Source of the DNA: Paenibacillus hemerocallicola
GTDB lineage: Bacteria; Bacillota; Bacilli; Paenibacillales; NBRC-103111
Assembly: GCF_006265175.1 (NCBI RefSeq)
Contig: NZ_VDCQ01000085.1
Coordinates: 1 to 37,211 of the forward strand
Length of the DNA: 37,211 nucleotides
Direction of reading: 5' to 3'
Numbering within the stretch: the first letter of the stretch is position 1; every line of letters starts with the position of its first letter. The notes beneath the pieces were generated by a model. The model had not been told where the DNA came from and did not search any database. It worked only from the letters and a program-made list of their open reading frames with translations. The position numbers and the translations under genes were made by a program. This document shows, piece by piece, positions 15,873-27,091 of this stretch.

Positions 15873-16679
15873 TCAGGCCCCTCCGGCCAGCCCGAACAAG
15901 CGCTCCGCATTCCGCGTCGTCTCCGCGGCTACGTCCTCGAACGGCCGTCCCGCGCAGCTCGCTATCGTCCGCACGATATGCGGCAGAAAGGCCGGCTCGT
16001 TGCGCGAGTCGGCCGGCTTCGGGCGCAGGTCGCGCGGCGTGAGGAAGGGCGCGTCCGTCTCGACGAGCAGACGGTCGGACGGTATGCGCTTGACGAGCTC
16101 CCGCAGAAGTACGCCCCGCCTTTCGTCGCAAATCCAGCCGGTAATGCCGATGTACAGCCCCATGCTCACGTAGGCGTCCAGCTCCGTACCCGTCCCCGTA
16201 AAGCAGTGAACAACAGCGGCCGGATACCGTCCCGCGTAACGGGTCAATATGCGGGCAAAGTCGTCATGTGCCTCCCGCTCGTGCAAAAACAGCGGCATGC
16301 CCAGCTCGCATGCGAGCTCTACTTGCGCTTCGAACCAGAGGCGCTGCACGTCCCGAGGCGAGAAGTCGCGGTTATAGTCGAGTCCGCACTCCCCGATGGC
16401 AACCACTTGCGGCGACGACGCCAAACGTCTCAGCCGGTCGATCGTCTCCCGGCCGCATTGCTTCGCGTCGTGCGGATGCACGCCTGCGGTGGAATAGAGC
16501 GCCCCGGCAGCCTGACGGCCGACGTAGGCGGCCGCTTCCTCGCTGCTCCGGAGGCTCGTGCCCGTCACGATCAACGGTGCGACTCCGGTCTCCGCCGCAC
16601 GGCGAACTACCTCCTCCCGGTCCGCATGGAACGACCTGTGCATCAGATTGACGCCAATATCGATGAATAGATTTTTCAT
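15873..16679 (-). CDS. tatD: TatD family metal-dependent nuclease, E. coli TatD type
   Basis: A 268-residue TIM-barrel hydrolase. TatD proteins are metal-dependent 3'-5' exonucleases active on single-stranded nucleic acids. Metal-ligand motifs are visible: STAGVHPHD, GECGLDYNRDF (Glu97), PLFLHERE (His133), VVHCFTGTG (His158) and LVETDAPFLTPRDL (Asp209). The N-terminus MKNLFIDIGVNLMHRSF, with GLYIGITGWICDERRG and SRNEPAFLPHI, is much closer to enterobacterial TatD than to the usual Bacillota YabD/YcfH type. The start is ATG 16679 with AAGGAG 10 nt upstream; it overlaps the kptA stop as ATGA, so translation is probably coupled. Its place beside KptA and RtcB suggests trimming of damaged RNA ends. 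Confidence 0.9.
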   Translation of the reverse strand: MKNLFIDIGVNLMHRSFHADREEVVRRAAETGVAPLIVTGTSLRSSEEAAAYVGRQAAGALYSTAGVHPHDAKQCGRETIDRLRRLASSPQVVAIGECGLDYNRDFSPRDVQRLWFEAQVELACELGMPLFLHEREAHDDFARILTRYAGRYPAAVVHCFTGTGTELDAYVSMGLYIGITGWICDERRGVLLRELVKRIPSDRLLVETDAPFLTPRDLRPKPADSRNEPAFLPHIVRTIASCAGRPFEDVAAETTRNAERLFGLAGGA

Positions 16680-17251
16680 CCGGTACGTTCTCCTTCCCCG
16701 TTCGTTTCGATTTTGCAGCAGGAGGGCGGGACGAAATCGGCCAGCCATACTTCGTTTCCGGCATTATAAAACTTCACTCCAGCCCGCATAGCCACCGCAG
16801 TATTGACAGCCACGATCGCCAGTCGTCCCTTCCGGCTCCCCGCCAGCGTGGCGAAATGCTGCCCTTCCGATAGATGAACGTACTGCCGGCCCATCGGCCG
16901 AATCCCTTCCCGCAGCAGGACCGGAGCGGTTTCGCCACTCGTTCCGTGATACAGCACGGCAGGCGGGGTTCCTTCCGCGTAGCCTACTCGACTGTAGCTG
17001 TGTCCGTACCGGGCACGGATGCGGTCCCCGAACAGCTCGAACCGCTGTTTATCGGAGTCGCGCACGACCTCCCGGATCTGTTCCATCGTCAGCGCCTCCC
17101 ACCCGTCCAGCCTGCGGACCGCACGCAGCAGCTCTTCCGCCTCGGTCGAGCCGTCGCCCGGATCGAGCGCGATACCGAAGGCTAACGGGTCATGGCGCAG
17201 CATCTTTGTCATCAGCTTGCTTAATTTCTTCGAATTTTCCTTGCTTAACAT
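16676..17251 (-). CDS. kptA: RNA 2'-phosphotransferase KptA/Tpt1
   Basis: A 191-residue enzyme of normal family length. Tpt1/KptA removes an internal 2'-phosphate from RNA using NAD+, giving ADP-ribose 1'',2''-cyclic phosphate. Conserved elements are visible: MLRHDP (Arg19, His20), the RIRARYGHS segment (His84), LYHGTS (His102) and REGIRPMGRQYVHLS. It follows the short rtcB by 25 nt and overlaps tatD by 4 nt. RtcB ligation does not leave a 2'-phosphate, so the substrate here is not obvious. It may serve RNAs made by another ligase, or use the ADP-ribosyl transfer to RNA ends reported for some family members. Confidence 0.9.
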   Translation of the reverse strand: MLSKENSKKLSKLMTKMLRHDPLAFGIALDPGDGSTEAEELLRAVRRLDGWEALTMEQIREVVRDSDKQRFELFGDRIRARYGHSYSRVGYAEGTPPAVLYHGTSGETAPVLLREGIRPMGRQYVHLSEGQHFATLAGSRKGRLAIVAVNTAVAMRAGVKFYNAGNEVWLADFVPPSCCKIETNGEGERTG

Positions 17252-17276: not shown

Positions 17277-18503
17277 TTAATCTTTGTACGGATCGAATTC
17301 GTCCGCGCCGGCCATACAGACGCCGATGGGCTTCAGCACGTGCAGCACCTCGATCGTGTCGCGGTGTGCGTCGAGCACCTCTTGCAGCTTACGGTACACG
17401 AAGGGGCTTTCGTCCGTTCCGGCGCCGCGCAGCTCCACCCCGTAATCGCGAACCGCCTGCTTCATCCGCTCGACGGATATCGCTCCACCGCTGCGGGTGC
17501 GCGTCTTCCAGTTCATTTTGCCCGCCGCTTGCGTACGGCTCATGATGCGGCCCGCCCCGTGTACGGTGCTGTAGAAAGCATCGCGGTTTTCTTCCGTATC
17601 CTTGCCCCTCACGATCACGGAAATATCCCCCATGCTGCCTCCGATAAAGCCCGTTTGCCCGGGTGCCGACGGCGTGGCGCCTTTGCGGACGACGATGCAC
17701 GAGCGTCCCTCGTGCTCTTCCGCCCAAGCGAAGTTATGGTGGTTGTGCACGGCGAATTCCGCTTCCGTGCCGATTATCGCCAGCACCTCGTCGATGACGT
17801 GATCCCTGCCGGCGTAGGCATACCTTCCGGCCAGCTTCATAGCCCGGAAATACATGTCTCCGAGCTCCTTGCTCATCTCGAATAGCACGGGAGGCTGGTC
17901 CATCTTCTCGCCCGGAGCGTTGCCGAGAAATTCCCGATTTGCGGCCAGATTGAGAAAACCGCTCGCCGTCTTATGTCCGAACCCGCGGCTGCCGAAATGA
18001 TTCGCCACCCACAGCGCGCCCGTCGACGGCTCCTCGAACAAATCGACGAAATGATTGCCGCTTCCGACTGTCCCCAATTGATCGCGGGCGAGCGCCTTCA
18101 GCTTATCGTGCTCCTGCTTGCCGACCGCCCGGTAGACGGCCCAATCCGGGTCGTCGAACAGGTCGTGGTCGACCTTGACGTCGTTCGTCCGGCCGATGCC
18201 GAACGAGATGCGCGCCGCGATCTCGTCCATCAGCTTCGGCAGCCGGTGCTTGATGTCGCGCGCCAGCAGCTTCGTGCGGACCGCCTTGTTGCCGCAGGCG
18301 ATGTCGTAGCCGACGCCGGACGGGGAAATTTGGCCATCGTACGCCACGACTCCCCCGATCGGCTGGCTGTAGCCTTTATGGTGATCGGCCATAAGCAGCG
18401 TTCGCACGACGTTGCCTGTCGCGGCGCATGTGATCGCTTGGGACAGCGCTCCTTCGTCCGGGCTGCCCCAGACGCGGACGCCGTCTATCGTTTCGTATGC
18501 CAT
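17277..18503 (-). CDS. RtcB-family RNA ligase, short form
   Basis: A 408-residue RtcB paralogue, shorter than canonical RtcB. RtcB joins RNA 2',3'-cyclic phosphate or 3'-phosphate ends to 5'-OH ends with GTP and Mn2+. Catalytic elements are all present: GYDIACG (Cys70), LGTVGSGNHF (His151), ANHFGSRGFG (His169), AVHNHHNFAW (253-256), KGATPSAPGQ and TVHGAGRIMSR, whose His315 corresponds to the guanylylated histidine. In place of the usual HSGSR it reads NHFGSR. The start is ATG 18503 with AAGGAG about 10 nt upstream. It leads the rtcB-kptA-tatD unit. It is probably an active ligase of a different specificity from the full-length copy 2.5 kb upstream. Confidence 0.88.
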   Translation of the reverse strand: MAYETIDGVRVWGSPDEGALSQAITCAATGNVVRTLLMADHHKGYSQPIGGVVAYDGQISPSGVGYDIACGNKAVRTKLLARDIKHRLPKLMDEIAARISFGIGRTNDVKVDHDLFDDPDWAVYRAVGKQEHDKLKALARDQLGTVGSGNHFVDLFEEPSTGALWVANHFGSRGFGHKTASGFLNLAANREFLGNAPGEKMDQPPVLFEMSKELGDMYFRAMKLAGRYAYAGRDHVIDEVLAIIGTEAEFAVHNHHNFAWAEEHEGRSCIVVRKGATPSAPGQTGFIGGSMGDISVIVRGKDTEENRDAFYSTVHGAGRIMSRTQAAGKMNWKTRTRSGGAISVERMKQAVRDYGVELRGAGTDESPFVYRKLQEVLDAHRDTIEVLHVLKPIGVCMAGADEFDPYKD

Positions 18504-18589
18504 AATTGCTTCTCTCCTTATATAAATTTCCTTGGTTAGCTTACCGGAAAGTCGATACTGGTGCATATCCCGGCGATTAACGAACCAAA

Positions 18590-18724
18590 TTGTTCCTGCT
18601 TTGGTATAGAGAGACGGACGCCGTGGGCATACCCGTGGCGCTGTTCCACTACATGCTGATGGGTCTCGTCTCGGTAACGACCGTCACCTCGTTCGAAAGC
18701 GTCGGCGCGATTCTCGTCGTCGGC
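18590..18724 (+). pseudogene. Fragment of a metal ABC-transporter permease
   Basis: About 35 codons encode DAVGIPVALFHYMLMGLVS followed by VTTVTSFESVGAILVV, characteristic of the membrane core of manganese/zinc ABC permeases of the MntD/TroD/ZnuB type. Both flanks are lost: before it there is no membrane segment, and after GAILVV the expected AMLI-type continuation is replaced by unrelated sequence. It is therefore a short internal relic on the opposite strand to its neighbours, and its right edge near 18725 is a recombination junction. Confidence 0.55.
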
Positions 18725-19284
18725 GGTCGGCTTAACGAACACCGTAGACCTTCCTGCGGCTCTTTCAGACACGTTTTTCCCACCCATAAGAGCGTTCCTG
18801 TCCGTTAGCTCGGGCTATCTGGGTCGACTGCGTTCCCCGTCCTGTGCGCTTGTTGCAGACCATGCTCTGACAGAGTCACCTGCACCTAAATAGTTACACC
18901 AAATTTCACTGTTTGTGAACCTGAGTTCAGCATTATATAGGTTGGACTAAAGGTTTTAACGTTCATTCCATTCCGGAAGGGATTGCCTTGCAGCTTCAGA
19001 CAGGTTGTTTTGAGTTGCTTTGAATGAATAGCCTACGGCAAAGGTTGAAGCTTGGGAGCCAAGACTCGCTCACAGGGCAATTCCCTTCTTCCATTGCATT
19101 AGGCTACTCTTAGCTGATTCTTTAGTTCATCTTATATAGTAAAATTAGTTCGAATTTCTAGATAGGGGTTATCGAAAACCAAGTCTGGGAACTTGGAAAG
19201 CAGAATGTAAGGCGAAGCGGAGCGCCTAAAAGATCATTGAAATCAGTACAGGCGGTGCTGCCGAAATAGAAGCCTTTTGGCTGG
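18725..19284. other. Unassigned non-coding stretch with local hairpins
   Basis: No convincing gene is present. The sequence has uneven composition and local pairing, for example GCCTA (from 19031) with TAGGC (near 19100) and the hairpin CTTGG-GAG-CCAAG inside it. On the minus strand an open frame starts MGGKNVSERAAGRSTVFVKP but runs into the antisense of the permease relic. It could be a remnant of a structured RNA element such as an intron, but I recognise none. Confidence 0.3.
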
Positions 19285-19504
19285 ATTTCATCCGTCCGTG
19301 CCACAATAAGGCTGGTTTCAACACTATCCGCATCGTTTTCCCGCTTCGCGCCGACTTTAGTGCCCGTTTCAACCTTATTTCCTTAAGCAAGCCGGATTTC
19401 GACAGGAATTCATCCGTCTGCGCCACAAATAAGGCTGGTTTCAGCACTATCCGCATCGTTTTCCCGCTTCGCGCCGACTTTAGTGCCCATTTCAACCTTA
19501 TTTC
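19285..19504. repeat. Two tandem copies of a 97-bp repeat
   Basis: Units at 19285-19381 and 19407-19504 are nearly identical, with a period of about 122 bp. Each unit is itself bounded by an inverted repeat: AAATAAGGCTGGTT near the left and TTTCAACCTTATTT at the right. This is typical of a small palindromic intergenic element; no gene is needed to explain it. Confidence 0.8.
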
Positions 19505-19639
19505 TGTCTTCCCGCTTTATCGGCGGACCAAGCCGGTCTAAGCAGTAATAATTAGGTTCACTATTGCCGCGAAATTGCTTGGAACGGGCAAAATAGCGCA
19601 CTGAAGTTCACTGTGAGCGTAACCCGGTTCACTATTGCC

Positions 19640-19665
19640 GTCTCCTTGCCTGACGGCAAGGAGAC
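19640..19665. other. Perfect 11-bp hairpin after the AAA+ ATPase gene
   Basis: GTCTCCTTGCC, loop TGAC and GGCAAGGAGAC form a perfect stem about 30 nt beyond the stop of the minus-strand ATPase gene. No T-run follows on either strand, so it may block 3' exonucleases or cause Rho-assisted termination rather than act as an intrinsic terminator. Nearby GGTTCACTATTGCC occurs twice (from about 19554 and 19626). Confidence 0.55.
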
Positions 19666-19695
19666 GATCGCAGTGACGGCTCTCTTGATTCAACC

Positions 19696-21054
19696 TCACG
19701 CCCCGATAAAGCCCACTCGCCCGTCGGAGGGCTCCTTCATCCACGCGTTCGTGCGCCCCTTCGCCAGGTCGCCCTTCATGCCGCGCACGAGCGCTTCGAG
19801 CCGGACCTCCCGCTCGTAATGCCACTGCAGCGCCGCCGAGACGTACAGCTCGTTCAGCTGGGCCAGCGTAAACGATTCGGTCAGCTTGGCCGCGTCCGTC
19901 ACCGCCTCTTCCCCGAGCATTTCGGCCAGCCCCCGCTGACGCAAATACCGGGCGCGCTGCGCCGCATCGGGCAAAGCGATCTCGTAGGCGCGGTCGAACC
20001 GGCCTGCGCGGTTCATCAGCGCCGGATCGATTTTCTCCGGATAATTCGTCGTCCCGATCAGAAAGATGCCTTCCTTGGAGGTGGCGCCGTCCAGCGTATT
20101 CAGGAAATACGAGCGGACCTGCTCCGGCATCGAATCGATATCCTCGATGATGAGCACCATCGGGGCCATTTTGACCGCCGATTCGAACACCTCCTGAATG
20201 GAGCCGCTGCTCGTGTGCTCGGTAATTTGCCAATAAGCCGCAGGCGCCCGGACGCTGCCCGCAATCGCCTTTACGAGCGTCGTCTTGCCGTTGCCCGGCT
20301 TGCCGTACAGCAGAATTCCCCGCTTGTAAGGAATATGGAACTCTCGGAAAAAACGTCTATCCTCGGCGAAAAACTCGTCGATCGAGCGGAAAATGTCCGT
20401 TTTCAGCGCTTCGTCCATCATGACCTCGTCCCGCTCGATCTTGCGCGTCAACGGCTCCTGCGACTGGTCGATCCCGTGACGCGTATCGCTGAATACGGTC
20501 ACCCGGCTGCTGTCGCGGTCTTGGCGCCGCCGCTGCATATATGCGAGAAACCGGCGCAGCGCCCCGTCGCTTTCGGCGAATACGAAGTCGTCGCAATAAA
20601 TGCCGTGCTCGCGGAACGCCGGGACGCGCGCGAGCGCCACTCCCTGCGCCGGATATGCGAATACGTTGTTGCGCAGCGACGGATATACCCGATAACCGCT
20701 CTCCGCCTGATCCGGCTCTACGCGATAGCAGAATGCCCGGGACTCGATCAGATCGTATACCCGGGCCACATACTCGACTTCTTCGCAGCCGCCTTGAACG
20801 TCCTCCTCCAGCAGCTCCCAGAAGTCGTCCCGGCCGTTGTCTTCGCTGACGTACAGTTGAAACGGCGTCCCGTACTTCCCGTTCAGCAGCTCCCGGATCC
20901 TGTGGATGACATGGGCATATTCCGTATATTCGGGAATCGCCTTCCCGTTCCCTTCCCCGTACGAAACGACCGTCTCTATTCTCGATTCCTTATCTTCAAT
21001 ACTATTGCTGTGAATAATCGTTACGCTCCTTTTACCGTCGCGAGCGGCTTGCAT
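19696..21054 (-). CDS. AAA+ ATPase linked to RtcB
   Basis: A 452-residue protein: an unfamiliar N-terminal region (about 1-205), then one AAA+ module resembling BCS1/Cdc48-type ATPases. Walker A is GKPGNGKTTL (251-260), Walker B is VLIIEDIDSM (300-309), sensor 1 is IGTTNYPEKIDPALMNRAGR (Asn337), and arginine-finger candidates are Arg349 and Arg352. There is no membrane segment. ATG 21054 overlaps the rtcB stop by 34 nt and lacks an RBS. A strong AAAAGGAG at 21033-21026 sits 7 nt before an in-frame ATT at 21018, so a rare ATT start (440 residues) is possible. Co-transcribed with full-length rtcB, it may remodel RNA-protein complexes or the ligase; that role is inference. Confidence 0.8.
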   Translation of the reverse strand: MQAARDGKRSVTIIHSNSIEDKESRIETVVSYGEGNGKAIPEYTEYAHVIHRIRELLNGKYGTPFQLYVSEDNGRDDFWELLEEDVQGGCEEVEYVARVYDLIESRAFCYRVEPDQAESGYRVYPSLRNNVFAYPAQGVALARVPAFREHGIYCDDFVFAESDGALRRFLAYMQRRRQDRDSSRVTVFSDTRHGIDQSQEPLTRKIERDEVMMDEALKTDIFRSIDEFFAEDRRFFREFHIPYKRGILLYGKPGNGKTTLVKAIAGSVRAPAAYWQITEHTSSGSIQEVFESAVKMAPMVLIIEDIDSMPEQVRSYFLNTLDGATSKEGIFLIGTTNYPEKIDPALMNRAGRFDRAYEIALPDAAQRARYLRQRGLAEMLGEEAVTDAAKLTESFTLAQLNELYVSAALQWHYEREVRLEALVRGMKGDLAKGRTNAWMKEPSDGRVGFIGA

Positions 21055-22472
21055 TTGGCCACTACCCGGGCCAATCCCGCCCCCGCGACGCTCTCTATGA
21101 TTTGATCCACGTCTTTGTAAGCCTGCGGCGATTCGTCTACGATCGACTCCAGCGTCCGCTGGTTGACTACGATTTCCGATTCGGTACCTATCCGCAAGGA
21201 AGCCTTGAATTCCTCGACGGTGACGAGCCGTTTCGTCGCGCTGCGCGAACGGATTCGCCCCGCTCCGTGGCAGATCGAGTAATAATTCGATTGTCCGCCC
21301 GGAGCGCCGACCATCAAGTAGGACGACGTCCCCATCGATCCCGGGATGAGCGCGGGATGGCCCGTTGCCAAGTACGGCGCCGGATTGTCCGGGTGGTTCG
21401 CGGGAAGCGCCCGAGTCGCGCCCTTGCGGTGGACAAAGTGCGATCGGCCGTTGTGCTCTTCTTCCCAAGCGTAATTATGCATCAAGTCGTAAAGCGTAGA
21501 CAGCTCGGCCTTCGGGCCGAAGACGTCGCGGAATGCCTCCCGGATGCCGTGAGCGATCAAGTGCCGGTTCACGACCGCATAATTGAGCGCCGAATACAGC
21601 AGGTGCACATACGATTGCGCGGCGTCCGTCTCGAGCGGCGCGAAGATCAGCTTCGGATCGGCCGTACCGAGGCCAAGACCGCGCATCGTCTTCGCCAACT
21701 CTCCGCCGCACTGCTGGTTGACCGCTCCGCCCCAAGCCCGCGAGCCGGAATGGACCATAACGATTACCTGGCCGTCGAACAGCCCCCACGCTTCCGCGAC
21801 ATGCCGGTTGCCTTCGTCGATCCGAACTTCCTGGATTTCCGCAAAATGGTTGCCGTTTCCCAACGTTCCGAGCTGCCGGTGCGCACGATGCCACACCGAT
21901 TCGGGCAGCCGGTCCAGATGCTCCTCGTCGAAGCCGAATTTGGCGCATTCCACATGGGTAAGCGAGGTCGCCTTTCGCGGCGTGTAGCTGTCCGGCACGT
22001 ACTTTCTGGGCAGGCCGTGAAGACCTTTCTTGATTACGTGCTCCAGCCGGATATCCGAGAAGTACCCCCGCGCATGCTCCTCGACCGGCAAGTAGGATTC
22101 GATCGCCTTCACCAGCTTGCGGCGCTGTCTGACGTCGCGCAGCTCCTCCCCGTGCAGGTTGGTCAGATGGACGCGCATGCCGCAGCCGATATCGCTGCCG
22201 ACAATCGAGGGCGACACGTACCCGCCGGCGGCGTTCCATACCGCCGTCGTGCCGATGCACGTCCCTACGCCGACATGAACGTCCGGCGTGTAGCTCATAT
22301 ATACCCGTTCCGGAATTTGCAAATTGTTGTTCGCCATCTCGAACACTTTATAGTCCATCGCACCGAACAGCGCATCCGAGGCATACACGTGCAGCCGCCC
22401 CGCAGGCAGCTCCACTTCCCGATAAAACAATGGTTGATCCTGAGAAAGGTCTTGATTACTAACAGTAAACAT
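21021..22472 (-). CDS. rtcB: RNA-splicing ligase RtcB, full length
   Basis: A 483-residue protein of canonical RtcB length. All signature elements are present: SDIGCGMR (Cys97), GTLGNGNHF (His209), VMVHSGSR (His241), MHNYAWEEEH (His332), HRKGATRA, IPGSMGTSSYLMVG and ICHGAGRIRSR, where His402 corresponds to the histidine that forms the covalent GMP intermediate. The enzyme joins 3'-phosphate or 2',3'-cyclic phosphate ends with 5'-OH ends, as in tRNA repair. ATG 22472 follows AGGAGG at a rather long 12 nt. Its messenger begins at a consensus promoter about 300 nt upstream and contains a leader ORF and a terminator before the gene, suggesting attenuation control. Confidence 0.93.
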   Translation of the reverse strand: MFTVSNQDLSQDQPLFYREVELPAGRLHVYASDALFGAMDYKVFEMANNNLQIPERVYMSYTPDVHVGVGTCIGTTAVWNAAGGYVSPSIVGSDIGCGMRVHLTNLHGEELRDVRQRRKLVKAIESYLPVEEHARGYFSDIRLEHVIKKGLHGLPRKYVPDSYTPRKATSLTHVECAKFGFDEEHLDRLPESVWHRAHRQLGTLGNGNHFAEIQEVRIDEGNRHVAEAWGLFDGQVIVMVHSGSRAWGGAVNQQCGGELAKTMRGLGLGTADPKLIFAPLETDAAQSYVHLLYSALNYAVVNRHLIAHGIREAFRDVFGPKAELSTLYDLMHNYAWEEEHNGRSHFVHRKGATRALPANHPDNPAPYLATGHPALIPGSMGTSSYLMVGAPGGQSNYYSICHGAGRIRSRSATKRLVTVEEFKASLRIGTESEIVVNQRTLESIVDESPQAYKDVDQIIESVAGAGLARVVAKCKPLATVKGA

Positions 22473-22544
22473 ATAGGTGTATTCCTCCTGATTAATTTCA
22501 TTCCAAACGCGCCTTGTGCGCAAATAAGCTCCCGAATGCAAACG

Positions 22545-22581
22545 CAAAAAAGCCACGGACTCCAAAAACGTCCGTGGCTTT
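22545..22581 (-). terminator. Intrinsic terminator in the rtcB leader
   Basis: On the minus strand AAAGCCACGGAC, a 9-nt loop and GTCCGTGGCTTT form a perfect 12-bp stem followed by further T residues. It lies between the leader ORF (stop at 22624) and the rtcB start (22472), so rtcB expression requires read-through or antitermination unless another promoter exists. Confidence 0.88.
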
Positions 22582-22591
22582 GGCGCGGATA

Positions 22592-22622
22592 GGCCGATTT
22601 TGCGTATGCAAACTATTCGGCC
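22592..22622 (-). promoter_or_regulatory. Leader hairpin upstream of the terminator
   Basis: GGCCGA (minus strand, 22622-22617) pairs with TCGGCC (22597-22592), and TTTGC-ATAC-GCAAA pairs inside. It begins 1 nt after the leader ORF's stop, so a ribosome paused at the end of the ORF would cover it. Its TTTGC/GCAAA arms could also pair with TTTGC copies just after the terminator. Confidence 0.5.
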
Positions 22623-22623
22623 G

Positions 22624-22731
22624 TTACGTGACAGCAGACCCGAAGAGGCCGGCGAAGAGCGAACGGACATATGCGGTTGCGGAACGGACAAACGTGCGGA
22701 TGTACGACTGCGAGCGAATATCGCGGATCAT
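22624..22731 (-). CDS. 35-residue leader peptide ORF of the rtcB operon
   Basis: ATG 22731 follows AAGGAGG at 9 nt, an excellent ribosome binding site, and the frame ends with TAA at 22624. The peptide begins MIRDIRSQSYIRTFVRS and ends LFAGLFGSAVT. Five Arg are spread through the first 23 residues and Leu/Phe/Gly through the tail. It lies between a consensus promoter and the terminator preceding rtcB. It may be a regulatory leader peptide whose translation controls the terminator, or a real small amphipathic protein. I recognise no family. Confidence 0.65.
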   Translation of the reverse strand: MIRDIRSQSYIRTFVRSATAYVRSLFAGLFGSAVT

Positions 22732-22763
22732 CTTCCTCGACCTCCTTCCAAAATATAGTACTC

Positions 22764-22793
22764 ATCATAACGGGTGTTCCCGATTGCTGTCAA
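22764..22793 (-). promoter_or_regulatory. Consensus sigma-A promoter of the rtcB operon
   Basis: The minus strand has TTGACA (22793-22788), an 18-bp spacer and TATGAT (22769-22764). Transcription would begin near 22757, about 25 nt before the leader ORF, and run through the terminator into rtcB. Confidence 0.88.
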
Positions 22794-22900
22794 TCCGTTT
22801 TGCCGGAAAAAATAAATATAATTAATCGGTTCAATAAATTTATTTTATCACATTAAAGCGGTGCCCCGACGCCGGAGCAGAACCGTTTGCGGCCGATTAA

Positions 22901-22929
22901 GTATAAAACGCCCGGTCTGGTGAATACTG
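22901..22929 (+). promoter_or_regulatory. Candidate sigma-G promoter of the germination operon
   Basis: GTATA (22901-22905) fits the sigma-G -35 pattern. After 17 bp, AATACTG (22923-22929) matches 5 of 7 positions of the -10 consensus CATWHTA. It lies 33 nt before the first gene. Forespore-specific expression is expected for germinant receptors, but the match alone is modest. Confidence 0.4.
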
Positions 22930-22961
22930 GGTGAAAACGTTACTTAGTCAGGTGATCCGCC

Positions 22962-24488
22962 ATGCCCCATGAAATGAACGACTTTAGCCAGCTGGCATTA
23001 CCGGAAAAAGTACAGCTGCTGCGACAGCAATTCGGCAACAGCAGCGATCTCGTCACACGGGACCTGCCGCTCGGAAAATCCGGGCAAATCCAGACGGCCG
23101 TCGCCTACATGGACGGGCTGGTCGATTCGCCGTCGGTTAACGGAATCGTGGACTCGCTGCAGCGAATGCTGCGCCGGGAGACGCGTTTGCCGGAGGAAAT
23201 GGCCGTAACCGGCTGGACCTCCTTGCTGAGCAAATTTCCGGTGTCGGCGGGAAGCGTCCGCGGCTTGAACGAGTGGCAGGCGATCGAGCATGCCCTGCTC
23301 TCCGGCGATACCGTTCTGTTTCTCGACAGCATCGGCGAATGCATCGCCGTCGGCACGGGAGGCGGCGAGCAGCGGGCCGTCGGCGAGCCGTCGACGGAAA
23401 CCGTCGTACGCGGGCCGCGCGAAGGCTTCTCGGAGAGCTTGAGAACGAACGTCGCGCTTGTCCGCAGAAGAATCAAGGACGCCGATCTGTGGGTGGAAAC
23501 GAAACAAATCGGCCGTGTCACCAATACCGACGTAGCCCTCGCGTACATAAACGGCATTGCCCAGGACAGCGTTGTCGCCGAAGCGAGAGCGCGGCTCGAG
23601 AGGATCGATATCGACGCCATACTGGAGAGCGGCTATATCGAGGAAATGATTCAGGACGAGGCGCGCTCGCTGTTCCCGACGATGACGAGCTCGGAGAGGC
23701 CGGACGTCATCGCGGCCGGTTTGTTGGAAGGGCGTATCGCCATCTTCGTGGACGGCACTCCGTTCGTGCTGATGGCCCCCGTTTTGTTCATCCAATTTTT
23801 CCAGGCCGCCGAAGATTATTACAACCGGTACAATTTCAGCATGATTCGGCTGCTGCGGCTGCTCTCTTTTTTTATTGCCATGCTCGCCCCGGCTTTTTAC
23901 ATCGCCCTGACCACGTTCCACCAAGAGGCGATTCCTACTCCGCTGCTCATCAGTCTGGCTGCGCAAAGGGAGGGGATTCCGTTCCCGGCCTTCGTAGAGG
24001 CGATGATTATGGAAATTACGTTCGAAATATTGCGCGAAGCCGGAGTTCGCATGCCGAGGGCGATCGGGCAAGCCGTCTCGATTGTCGGAGCGCTCGTGCT
24101 GGGCGATGCCGCCGTTCAGGCGGGACTCGTCTCGCCGGCAATGGTTATCGTCGTCTCTTTGACGGCTATATCCAGCTTTGTCATACCGGCTTACGATTTG
24201 GCCATCTCCACCCGGATTATGCGGTTTATTTTCATGATTCTGGCCGCTTCCTTCGGCTTGTTCGGCATTTCCGCCGGGATCGTCGCACTTGTGCTGCACT
24301 TGTGCAGTCTGCGTTCGTTCGGCGTCCCGATTCTGTCTCCGTTCGCGCCGCTATCGGCTGCCGGACTCAAGGATAGCCTGATTCGCTTCCCGTTATGGCG
24401 GCTGCATGTGCGGCCCAGGTTTCTAAGCCCGCGGAACAAAGTCCGCGAGCGCGGATCGGGACCGAAAAAACCGATGGCGAGGAAATAA
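22962..24488 (+). CDS. GerA-family germinant receptor A subunit
   Basis: A 508-residue spore inner-membrane protein. The soluble N-terminal domain (about 1-260) ends in the family segments VRGPREGFSESLRTNVALVR, RIKDADLWVE and VALAYINGIA. A membrane domain follows with several hydrophobic helices (about 290-465) and the conserved ending FGVPILSPFAPL before a basic tail. ATG 22962 has AGGTGA 7 nt upstream. With the B and C subunits it forms the complex that senses small-molecule germinants in dormant spores. The germinant cannot be predicted. It is the first gene of a four-gene operon (gaps 27, 5 and 12 nt). Confidence 0.92.
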   Translation: MPHEMNDFSQLALPEKVQLLRQQFGNSSDLVTRDLPLGKSGQIQTAVAYMDGLVDSPSVNGIVDSLQRMLRRETRLPEEMAVTGWTSLLSKFPVSAGSVRGLNEWQAIEHALLSGDTVLFLDSIGECIAVGTGGGEQRAVGEPSTETVVRGPREGFSESLRTNVALVRRRIKDADLWVETKQIGRVTNTDVALAYINGIAQDSVVAEARARLERIDIDAILESGYIEEMIQDEARSLFPTMTSSERPDVIAAGLLEGRIAIFVDGTPFVLMAPVLFIQFFQAAEDYYNRYNFSMIRLLRLLSFFIAMLAPAFYIALTTFHQEAIPTPLLISLAAQREGIPFPAFVEAMIMEITFEILREAGVRMPRAIGQAVSIVGALVLGDAAVQAGLVSPAMVIVVSLTAISSFVIPAYDLAISTRIMRFIFMILAASFGLFGISAGIVALVLHLCSLRSFGVPILSPFAPLSAAGLKDSLIRFPLWRLHVRPRFLSPRNKVRERGSGPKKPMARK

Positions 24489-24515
24489 CTATTAACATCA
24501 AGGGAGTCACAGGAC

Positions 24516-25718
24516 ATGCTGAAACGAATCGCCGTTGCCGCGCTTCTATGCTGCATATGCCTTGCGCTCGCGGGATGCTGGAGCCGTCGCGAATTGAATG
24601 AGCTGTCGATCACGGTCGGGCTCGGCATCGATAAGACAGGGGACCAGTTCACCGTGTCCGCGCAGGTCGTCGATCCCGGACAAGTGGCGATGAGGGCGGC
24701 CGGCAGCGGTACGCGGGTGCCGATCACCGTGTACAAGGAATCCGGTCCGAGCATTTTGGAGGCTCTGCGCAAAATGACGACGATTGCCCCCCGTCGCATT
24801 TATTTGTCCCACCTGCGCATGCTGATCATCGGCGAAGAAATGGCGCGCAGCGGTATCAGCGAAGCGCTGGATTTTTTGTCGAGAGGACACGAGACGCGCA
24901 CCGACTTTTTCATCGCGATCGCCAAGGGCAGCCGGGCTATCGATATTTTGAACGTGTTGACTCCTCTGGAGAAAATACCGGCCAACAACTTGTTCTCCTC
25001 GCTTGAAACGTCGGCCAAATTTTGGGCGCCCACCCACGGCATTTTTCTGGACGAGCTCGTGAACGGCTTGGCCGAGGAAGGGAAAAGCCCTGCGGTTACG
25101 GGTATCCGCATCAAAGGAAATACGGAGAAGGGCGACATCATTCAAAATATCCAGTCGATCATCCCGCCGGCCGAGCTCGAATACGCCGGTCTCGCCGCCT
25201 TCAAAAAAGACAAGCTGATCGGCTGGCTGACCGACGACGAGAGCAAAGGCTTCAACTACATTCAAGGATTCGTCAAAGAATCGGCAGGCCATCTCGATTG
25301 CCCAAACGGCGGCCGTCTCGTGACGGACGTCATCCGCACGACGACGAAGGTCAAGGGGAAAGTAATCGACGGCAAACCGGCGATCGATATCGTGCTGTAC
25401 GCCGAGGGGGATGTCGCCGAGGTTGCCTGCAGCATCGATTTGCAAAACCCGAAATCGATAACGGAGCTAAGCCAGCACATTAACGAAAACTTCAAACGGC
25501 TGATCAACAAAACGCTAAACAAAGCGCAAAACGGACTGAAAACCGACTTTATCGGCTTCGGCAACGTCTTCCGCAAATCGTATCCGAAGGAATGGAAAGA
25601 ATGGAAGCGAGATTGGCAGGAGCTCTTCGTGACGCTGCCCGTCGATGTCCATGTGGATTACCGGATACGACGGATCGGAACGATTACGAATTCGCTTATG
25701 GAAGAAATGAAGGAGTGA
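24516..25718 (+). CDS. Ger(x)C-family germinant receptor lipoprotein
   Basis: A 400-residue lipoprotein C subunit. The signal peptide ends at LAGC with Cys21 as lipidation site, followed by WSRRELNELSITVGLGIDK, typical of Ger(x)C proteins. The body contains LRKMTTIAPRRIYLSHLRML and GRGHETRTD-like family segments (here SRGHETRTDFFIAIAKGS). It anchors on the outer face of the spore inner membrane and is needed for receptor function. It follows gerA by 27 nt. Confidence 0.92.
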   Translation: MLKRIAVAALLCCICLALAGCWSRRELNELSITVGLGIDKTGDQFTVSAQVVDPGQVAMRAAGSGTRVPITVYKESGPSILEALRKMTTIAPRRIYLSHLRMLIIGEEMARSGISEALDFLSRGHETRTDFFIAIAKGSRAIDILNVLTPLEKIPANNLFSSLETSAKFWAPTHGIFLDELVNGLAEEGKSPAVTGIRIKGNTEKGDIIQNIQSIIPPAELEYAGLAAFKKDKLIGWLTDDESKGFNYIQGFVKESAGHLDCPNGGRLVTDVIRTTTKVKGKVIDGKPAIDIVLYAEGDVAEVACSIDLQNPKSITELSQHINENFKRLINKTLNKAQNGLKTDFIGFGNVFRKSYPKEWKEWKRDWQELFVTLPVDVHVDYRIRRIGTITNSLMEEMKE

Positions 25719-25723
25719 GGACC

Positions 25724-25957
25724 GTGTGGCCTGTAATCGGCTTGATCGCCGGCGCGGCAATCGTCTCCGTCCTCGAAGTGCCCGCCATGGTGCGCGGCCG
25801 CATGAAGAAGGATTTGGCGGTGTTCGCCTGTTTGCTCGCCGCCGCTTTGACCATCAGCATTTTCTATACGCTGCACGTCGCCGTGCCGAATCCGACGCAG
25901 CTGATCACGCGGTTGTTTATGCCGATCAGCAAATGGCTCGAACAGTTGCTTTCCTAA
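25724..25957 (+). CDS. Small two-helix membrane protein of the germination operon
   Basis: A 77-residue protein starting at GTG 25724, with GGAG 9 nt upstream and 5 nt after gerC. It has two hydrophobic helices (about 2-17 and 30-50) separated by the basic loop MVRGRMKK. Size, topology and position fit the D-type subunits described for some Bacillus germinant receptor operons, which modulate germination. It has no catalytic motif. Confidence 0.7.
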   Translation: MWPVIGLIAGAAIVSVLEVPAMVRGRMKKDLAVFACLLAAALTISIFYTLHVAVPNPTQLITRLFMPISKWLEQLLS

Positions 25958-25969
25958 GGGGGAATGGAG

Positions 25970-27091
25970 GTGGAACAGGGTAAAATCGCGCCGCGCCAGT
26001 TTACGATACTCGTCATCATGTTTATTATCGGAAGCTCGATTCTGCTCGTACCCGCCGCGCTCGGGGCTCAAGCCAAGCAGGATGCCTGGATATCGGCCAT
26101 ACTGGGCGTCGCCGTCGGCCTCGGAATCATCGTGTTATTGGCTGCCGCAGGGAGCCGGCTGCCGTCCGCATCGCTGACCGAGTCGTTGAAGGGGCTGCTC
26201 GGCAAATGGCTCGGGACGGTTGTTGCCATTTTCTTCGTTATCCATGCGTTTCTTCTCTCCGTATTCATGCTCCGGTATATCGGGGATTTCATGGCTACGC
26301 AAATTATGCCGGAGACGCCTGTCGAAGCGATTCATATCGTCTTTATTATTTTGGTCATTATGGCGGCAAAGCACGGACTGGAGACGTTTACCCGCTCGGC
26401 GGAAATTTTCTTGCCCTGGGTGCTGATCTTTTTATTCATTCTTACCCTTTTCGTGCTCCCCCAGATGAAGCTGGACAATTTGCTGCCGATCATGCATAAC
26501 GGATTCGCCCCCGTATTGAAGGGCTCTCTTCCGCTGATCGGCATCCCGTATTTGGAGCTCGTGCTGCTTCTGATGGTATACCCGCATGTGGACGATCCGT
26601 CCAAAAGGACGCGCGCCTTCCTGCTCGGCGGGACGATCGGAGGCATACTGATCATCCTCATCACGGTGCTGACCTTATCCGTACTCGGGCCGTATTTGAC
26701 CGTACGAAACATTTACCCCAGCTTCGCGCTGACCAAGAAAATCAATATCGGTTCATTTTTGCAGCGGATCGAGGCGCTGTTGGCGATCACGTGGTTTTTG
26801 ACCATTTATTTCAAAACGACCGTCACCTTCTACGTAACGGCTGTCGGGATCGCGCAAATATTCAAGCTGAAGCGGTATCAGTCCGTGCTCGCGCCTCTCG
26901 GCTTCCTTGCCGCCATCTATGCCCTGATCGTCTACCCGGATATCGTGTACGGGATCCGTTTCGCCGGAACGATATGGACTCCGTACGCTGCCGTATTCGG
27001 TTTGCTGCTGCCGCTCGTCCTTCTCGGCATAGCGATGCTGCGGAAAATCGGGGGATCGGGCAGGCGCAAGAAAGGCGCCGGTTCCCGCTAG
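25970..27091 (+). CDS. GerB-family germinant receptor permease-like subunit
   Basis: A 373-residue integral membrane protein of the amino-acid/polyamine/organocation superfamily, with about ten helices. The start QGKIAPRQFTILVIMFIIGS is typical of GerAB/YndE proteins. I prefer GTG 25970, where AGGGGGA is well spaced; ATG 25964 lies too close to it. B subunits bind the germinant. The C-terminus is short and basic. It is the last gene of the operon. Confidence 0.9.
   Translation: MEQGKIAPRQFTILVIMFIIGSSILLVPAALGAQAKQDAWISAILGVAVGLGIIVLLAAAGSRLPSASLTESLKGLLGKWLGTVVAIFFVIHAFLLSVFMLRYIGDFMATQIMPETPVEAIHIVFIILVIMAAKHGLETFTRSAEIFLPWVLIFLFILTLFVLPQMKLDNLLPIMHNGFAPVLKGSLPLIGIPYLELVLLLMVYPHVDDPSKRTRAFLLGGTIGGILIILITVLTLSVLGPYLTVRNIYPSFALTKKINIGSFLQRIEALLAITWFLTIYFKTTVTFYVTAVGIAQIFKLKRYQSVLAPLGFLAAIYALIVYPDIVYGIRFAGTIWTPYAAVFGLLLPLVLLGIAMLRKIGGSGRRKKGAGSR

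Follow-up and report, generated by a model that had tools for sequence, protein, structure and literature searches.

The rtcB operon of Paenibacillus hemerocallicola is preceded by a leader that is probably a ribosome-mediated transcription attenuator for RNA-repair genes, one that would sense stalled elongation without fixed control codons. Attenuation as such is well supported by comparison: almost all relatives that were read retain the ORF, the terminator and the promoter. The attenuator-like arrangement proposed in a preliminary description of this DNA is to that extent borne out. The window, i.e., the whole stretch of DNA that was analysed, comprises 37,211 nt of contig NZ_VDCQ01000085.1; its numbering is used throughout, and both the leader and the rtcB operon lie on its minus strand. 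The genome measures 9.65 Mb; among named relatives, Paenibacillus oceani and P. ginsengarvi are closest.

The leader promoter, TTGACA-N18-TATGAT (22764..22793, minus strand; TTGACA at 22793-22788 and TATGAT at 22769-22764, separated by an 18-nt spacer), agrees with the consensus at 11 of 12 positions, looks like a σ70-type promoter, and a promoter of the same type stands ahead of the leader in the relatives read. The pattern alone means little, since shuffled sequences yield 3.6 promoter-like sites for positions 20000-27000, compared with the 2 observed; it is conservation in relatives, and not the promoter pattern, that makes the leader more than chance. Downstream, on the same strand, are the SD sequence GGAGGTCG (22738..22745, with GGAGG from 22745) and a leader ORF (uORF) of 35 codons (22624..22731) that runs from ATG at 22731 to TAA at 22624 and translates as MIRDIRSQSYIRTFVRSATAYVRSLFAGLFGSAVT. 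A hairpin, GGCCGA...TCGGCC (22592..22622, minus strand), starts one base past the stop, and a GGYCG...GGCC pair past the stop can be seen by eye in P. oceani (L010) and P. ginsengarvi (L011) as well. The intrinsic terminator with its T-run (22546..22581, minus strand) has a perfect 12-bp stem, AAAGCCACGGAC...GTCCGTGGCTTT, at 22581-22549, six T at 22551-22546 and a hairpin fold energy of -21.7 kcal/mol. Thus, the promoter, the 35-codon ORF with a good ribosome binding site, the hairpin 1 nt past the stop and the terminator ahead of rtcB are all where the preliminary description had placed them. A strong second promoter between the terminator and rtcB, which that description had named as evidence against its proposal, did not turn up: a pattern scan of positions 20000-27000 found no promoter-like site there. 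A long ORF beyond the promoter (22962-24488) is oriented opposite to the leader, and therefore the terminator is not that of an upstream gene.

In a scan of named genomes, 80 rtcB loci were kept from 243 relatives, and the leader is present at 79 of them (78 by pattern or eye, L050 by covariance model); none was found at the L081 rtcB locus. The covariance model R1, built from 53 sequences, matches 71 of 104 family genomes at E ≤ 0.01. Of the 104, 66 have an rtcB that shares 68% identity or more with that of the window, and the leader is found in all 66: in 65 by an R1 match, counting G010, where leader and rtcB are on different contigs, and in the last one (G018) by eye. The 38 family genomes without that rtcB gave six R1 matches, which belong to an AAA remnant (G012), rlaP (G055), hen1 (G080), kptA (G088) and a protein without a family (G100), the match in G062 being false. 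Across the order, R1 matches 208 of 392 sampled genomes from 24 of 49 genera at E ≤ 0.001. The two further genomes of the genus that have this rtcB, those of P. oceani and P. ginsengarvi, retain both a 35-codon ORF and a terminator, the absence of which in close relatives would, according to the preliminary description, have told against the circuit. No R1 match was found in the two same-genus genomes that lack this rtcB.

Ninety-nine leaders were compared by sequence reading: 79 of the rtcB type, including that of the window, 16 ahead of hen1 and 4 others (L050 and L081, missed by the pattern search, are outside this set). A short ORF with an SD stands between promoter and terminator in all 99. 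The terminator was called in 97, against 14-16 when the post-stop sequence was shuffled, and under a stricter rule in 96 against 0-2; the two leaders missed by the terminator finder are L014, where a terminator is present by eye, and L034.

The leader ORFs span 23-50 codons. In 99 of 99 leaders the ORF is open through an element complementary to the SD (anti-SD element) and stops just past it, a count in which, where several starts fitted, the one giving the latest stop was taken, slightly favouring long ORFs. Positions of the element were set by motif before counting wherever the finder had misplaced or missed it (L011, L025, L062, L063, L066, L067, L072, L078, L080, L083, L088 and most hen1 leaders). 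In the window, the element CGGCCTCT (22644..22651, minus strand) lies within the ORF end, with the stop codon 18 nt past it. Further counts were made over the 47 leaders that are below 80% identity; these share ancestry, and the counts are not of independent events. The stop follows the element by 7-29 nt in 47 of 47 (by 47 and 49 nt in two hen1 leaders outside the set). The element ends in frames 0, 1 and 2 in 12, 19 and 16 leaders, respectively, and the ORF frame is open through it in 47 of 47; the +1 frame is open in 1 of 47 and the +2 frame in 11 of 47, and shuffles predict 14. A conserved leader peptide can be rejected, as peptides differ between clades and the shared nucleotide elements fall in all three frames. 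Control codons of the kind used by a trp-type amino-acid attenuator are likewise absent, all 61 sense codons being used over the 47 leaders. Judged from sequence, the conserved entity is the RNA and not the peptide, and the SD pairs with its complement near the ORF end.

A further conserved motif, ACAAYTGCATA, is located ca. 34 nt before the end of the anti-SD element in 38 of the 47 leaders (null mean 7.4, maximum 14) and occurs in all frames; its copy in the window is GCAACCGCATA (22670..22680, minus strand). No pairing partner for it was found within the leader in the five regions tested. The motif plays no part in the attenuator model, and this counts against the model.

The helix between SD and anti-SD element was the sole proposal of RNAalifold for the 53 sequences. 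Of the cells in its 13 pairs, 83.7% are paired, and double changes occur in 7 of the 13. Its covariation score is 0.211, compared with 0.180 ± 0.008 for shuffled sequences; 0 of 500 shuffles scored as high, and the score is above that of every slid version, although kinship among the sequences inflates covariation counts. Further pair types did not exceed the shuffles, 84 of 500 of which did as well, and the helix has 21 double-changed cells where the -1 slide has 27. In the window, the mean pairing probability of the helix is 0.02 without constraints and 0.47 with a ribosome at the stop. Within the family, the helix would thus provide an anti-antiterminator overlapping the uORF; in the fold of the window itself it is weak. 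The alignment of related leaders suggested in the preliminary description returned the terminator and a covariation score above shuffles but no conserved peptide.

The putative antiterminator pairs the 5′ arm of the terminator with the anti-SD element. When 46 leaders were folded as they would be before synthesis of the 3′ arm, the probability of this pairing was 0.18 in free RNA, 0.35 when the SD was blocked and 0.03 when a ribosome stood at the stop, as estimated by equilibrium folding, which ignores co-transcriptional kinetics. A blocked SD leaves the element open to any partner, and shuffled arms are therefore needed as a control; with the SD blocked they gave 0.256 ± 0.029, and 0 of 30 sets reached the real value of 0.35. 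In 17 of 45 leaders, the terminator contains a complement to the distal 4-mer of the leader's own anti-SD element, compared with 9.4 after permutation (P 0.001); in L047 and L056, for instance, CATT meets AATG, and in L146 TATT meets AATA. By duplex energy, cognate partners were favoured over swapped ones at P 0.027 with a narrow element, but with a wider element there was no cognate preference (P 0.41). The best partner of the arm lies near the anti-SD element in 40 of 46 leaders (33.7 ± 2.8 expected); tested against the whole ORF, the arm exceeded shuffles at P < 0.05 in just 2 of 46, and the hen1 leaders were not above shuffles. For the leader family, this mixed support leaves an antiterminator probable. 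In the window, the narrow pairing is absent and worse than in shuffles (z +1.65), and folding pairs the arm instead with its best partner inside the ORF, TGTCCGTTCGCTC (22657..22669, minus strand), just upstream of the anti-SD element, at P 0.27, which is not above chance; the antiterminator is therefore unproven for the window sequence.

The model that we propose has four competing RNA segments: the leader SD (segment 1, the anti-antiterminator strand), the anti-SD element (segment 2) and the 5′ and 3′ arms of the terminator (segments 3 and 4). Without a ribosome, segment 1 would pair with segment 2, the terminator 3:4 would form, and the operon would be off. It would also be off during normal translation, when the ribosome would traverse segment 2, halt at the stop codon just past it and keep segment 2 from segment 3. 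If a ribosome stalled within the ORF, it or those queued behind it would cover the SD, leaving segment 2 and its flank free to pair with segment 3; the terminator would then fail, and rtcB and its partner genes would be transcribed. As the SD itself serves as segment 1, stalls at many codons should be effective, in line with a peptide that is not conserved and with ORFs that draw on all 61 sense codons. A stall-driven switch had been suggested in the preliminary description, and the conserved ORF and terminator fit it; its key element would be the SD:anti-SD pairing, which had escaped that first reading. What we infer in this model is the succession of its events, the antiterminator and that, in nature, ribosomes stall because tRNAs are broken or missing. 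Damage to tRNA is a plausible natural signal; it is one cause of stalling, and antibiotics and amino-acid starvation are equally compatible with these sequences.

The genes behind the leader were read for 106 distinct R1 matches, drawn from 68 of 78 matches of the family search and 40 of the order search (among the matches listed), with three false ones (L135, L136 and L138) set aside beforehand; L241, L242 and L243 were also judged false on reading. One hundred of the 106 precede an RNA-repair gene, i.e., rtcB, rlaP (PF10127, whose Pfam name refers to an RNA-repair pathway), the AAA gene of the operon, kptA or hen1-pnkp, counting an AAA remnant in L146 and a broken rtcB in L223. Of the other six, L141 and L211 run into contig ends, and L123, L125 and L207 are orphan or decayed copies that adjoin neither a repair gene nor a leader-type terminator (L123 has another hairpin with a T-run further downstream). 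In the sixth, L133 (G100:C27), an intact leader stands ahead of a 218-aa protein that neither Pfam nor NCBIfam matches; its gene is a candidate for a new function in RNA repair or translation stress.

In the window, the first gene that the proposed model would place under control is rtcB (PF01139; 21021..22472, minus strand, starting at 22472). It is followed on the same strand by an AAA+ ATPase gene (PF00004; 19696..21020, approximate start), a gene for a second, divergent RtcB-family protein (17277..18566, whose start may be further inside) and one for a KptA/Tpt1 RNA 2′-phosphotransferase (PF01885; 16676..17251), co-transcription with rtcB being assumed for the last two. Among the AAA+ families that the AAA+ ATPase weakly resembles is the anti-phage ATPase IetA/IteA. 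An ORF for a TatD-family nuclease (15873-16748) overlaps the end of kptA, and in the ORF at 19226-19495, which separates the AAA gene from that of the second RtcB, the stretch ALKSARSGKTMRIVLKPAL is present twice; no tandem repeats were called in 18500-23000.

The hen1-pnkp system, a repair system non-homologous to RtcB, was reached via four weak R1 matches (24-32 bits). Its first protein carries Hen1_N and a methyltransferase domain, and its second AAA_33, metallophosphatase and PNKP_ligase domains. The leader is present at 16 of the 30 hen1 loci read (45 genomes have Hen1_N matches). Among the 14 loci without it, 12 share another conserved upstream block, hen1 of L179 lies directly after the second rtcB, and L181, counted as leaderless, resembles a leader that has lost its start. 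The other block, of the form CGTAATACTTTCACCCTGTTC...AAGCGAAAATACGAT, occurs upstream of the genome's second rtcB (G000:C92, L234; 60% identical) and of the 12 leaderless hen1 genes (L162-L167, L171, L177, L182, L185, L189, L190), and is perhaps an alternative-σ promoter. A permuted-tRNA-like RNA precedes hen1 in L162, L163, L165 and L167; in an Rfam scan, those of L163, L165 and L167 matched the Y RNA-like family YrlA (RF02553) at E 2.6e-5 to 2.2e-4, which is short of the gathering score, and ARAGORN called no tRNA in these three. The two repair systems also meet in operons: hen1 shares one with rtcB and rlaP in L198 and L200, the latter being a single rtcB-rlaP-hen1-pnkp operon.

Outside the order, a class-wide R1 search matched 24 genomes at E ≤ 0.01. 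In nine of them (G404, G453, G481, G511, G539, G564, G569, G625 and G657) the match lies just upstream of YrzI (PF09501), in a YrzI search that covered 299 of 398 genomes, so that some of the other 15 may fall outside it; in G589 and G649, which were covered, the matches are not near yrzI. The leader build was found at 19 of 30 yrzI loci, at 17 by one script (0-1 of 30 in 20 shuffled sets) and at L266 and L271 by another; at the other 11 it was not found by these rules. Three of the 19 (L249, L251, L252) adjoin, by eye, an apparent formate-transporter gene. Like the rtcB leader, the yrzI leaders of other Bacilli have a promoter, an SD of the GGAGGTCGAA type that pairs with the ORF end, an ACAAYTGCATA-like motif and terminator-like hairpins; unlike it, they often have two such hairpins and precede small peptides annotated without function. 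With R1 matches upstream of yrzI and SD:anti-SD pairing in common, the R1 leaders and the yrzI leaders are, at the level of sequence, one RNA family. One paper reportedly deals with a bmrCD attenuator. In B. subtilis, yrzI and bmrCD mRNAs rise upon depletion of the tRNA maturases RNase P or RNase Z, according to excerpts of PMC10100781, and an excerpt of PMC7604286 tables a yrzI reporter for protein-synthesis inhibition, citing Hutter et al. 2004; the yrzI 5′ UTR of B. licheniformis is given as 301 nt in an excerpt of PMC3871023. The shared build and these two responses of B. subtilis yrzI lend the attenuator model some support from outside; the excerpts on the responses do not deal with the leader, and PMC10100781 treats the rise as a matter of mRNA stability, which counts against it.

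Tentatively, these leaders may form a Bacilli-wide, codon-blind class with the SD as switch strand, which in Paenibacillales might act as a common on-switch of RtcB/RlaP/KptA and Hen1-Pnkp, the broken tRNA reporting its own repair via the ribosome. If true, this would be a concrete switch common to two non-homologous repair systems and tied to the yrzI operon of Bacillus, which responds to translation stress. More generally, it points to a design in which the SD serves as anti-antiterminator strand and stalls are sensed without dedicated codons.

Several other explanations have to be weighed. The leader could answer mainly drug-stalled ribosomes, RNA repair being induced since such drugs accompany RNA damage. 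We consider this rather unlikely: the logic is shared with the vmlR leader, as described in an excerpt of PMC9226507, and yrzI is listed as a protein-synthesis-inhibition reporter in that of PMC7604286, but there is no conserved drug-arrest peptide, and RtcB and Hen1-Pnkp are enzymes that mend and seal RNA ends rather than drug-resistance proteins. The strong conservation of the SD and its role as switch strand would also suit a sensor of initiation or of the 16S rRNA 3′ end, where tail-less ribosomes could not bind the SD and the SD:anti-SD helix would set the output. In our model, however, lost SD binding would lead to SD:anti-SD pairing, termination and repair being off, and such a sensor would need no conservation of ORF openness or stop position, which makes it very unlikely.

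Control by decay of the mRNA is equally hard to credit. Here, a Rae1-like ribosome-associated nuclease would cut the leader or operon during translation, and stalling would alter stability and not termination; yrzI is among the candidate Rae1 targets in an excerpt of PMC10632193, and the yrzI effect is discussed as one of mRNA stability in that of PMC10100781. Against this stand the conserved terminator and the candidate competing pairing in the leader, as well as the lack of a conserved codon site in the ORF. Finally, the presence of an SD and a start codon and the invariably open frame are what one would expect of a functional small peptide, a toxin or regulator, with a terminator that merely tunes its level; since the peptides vary by clade and the shared nucleotide elements fall in all three frames, we regard this as extremely improbable. 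Of the readings set out here, we consider ribosome-mediated attenuation the most likely.

Rfam release 15 gave no match in the window (gathering score), in the leaders of nine relatives (E ≤ 1) or at four yrzI loci, and a T-box riboswitch was rejected on the same searches of the window and the nine relatives. In the open-access literature, neither a leader ahead of rtcB or hen1 nor Gram-positive induction of RNA repair is described among the matches listed, and an RNA leader controlling rtcB appears to be undescribed. Attenuators of the trp type have four competing segments and a leader ORF. In our model, the leader studied here would likewise have four competing segments, along with its ORF; it differs in having no control codons and in using the SD as segment 1.

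The circuit as a whole had been thought new in the preliminary description, and this appears to apply to the RNA leader but not to the principle: control of rtcB by damaged tRNA is known from Salmonella, where RtcR binds tRNA fragments (excerpt of PMC7790460). There, as in E. coli (excerpt of PMC12606134), the rtcB operon is turned on upon RNA damage, in the form of tRNA fragments, but by a CARF-domain protein activator and a σ54 promoter instead of an RNA leader. Closer in build is the vmlR leader of B. subtilis, which, as an excerpt of PMC9226507 has it, consists of a uORF, an anti-antiterminator, an antiterminator and an intrinsic terminator, and in which stalling on the uORF prevents the anti-antiterminator. 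There, the uORF encodes a tripeptide and lies in a bulge of hairpin 1, with the SD in a single-stranded region, whereas in the rtcB leaders the ORF has 23-50 codons and the SD is itself a hairpin strand; and the gene that the vmlR leader controls encodes a resistance ABC-F protein (same excerpt), whereas the leader studied here precedes RNA-repair genes.
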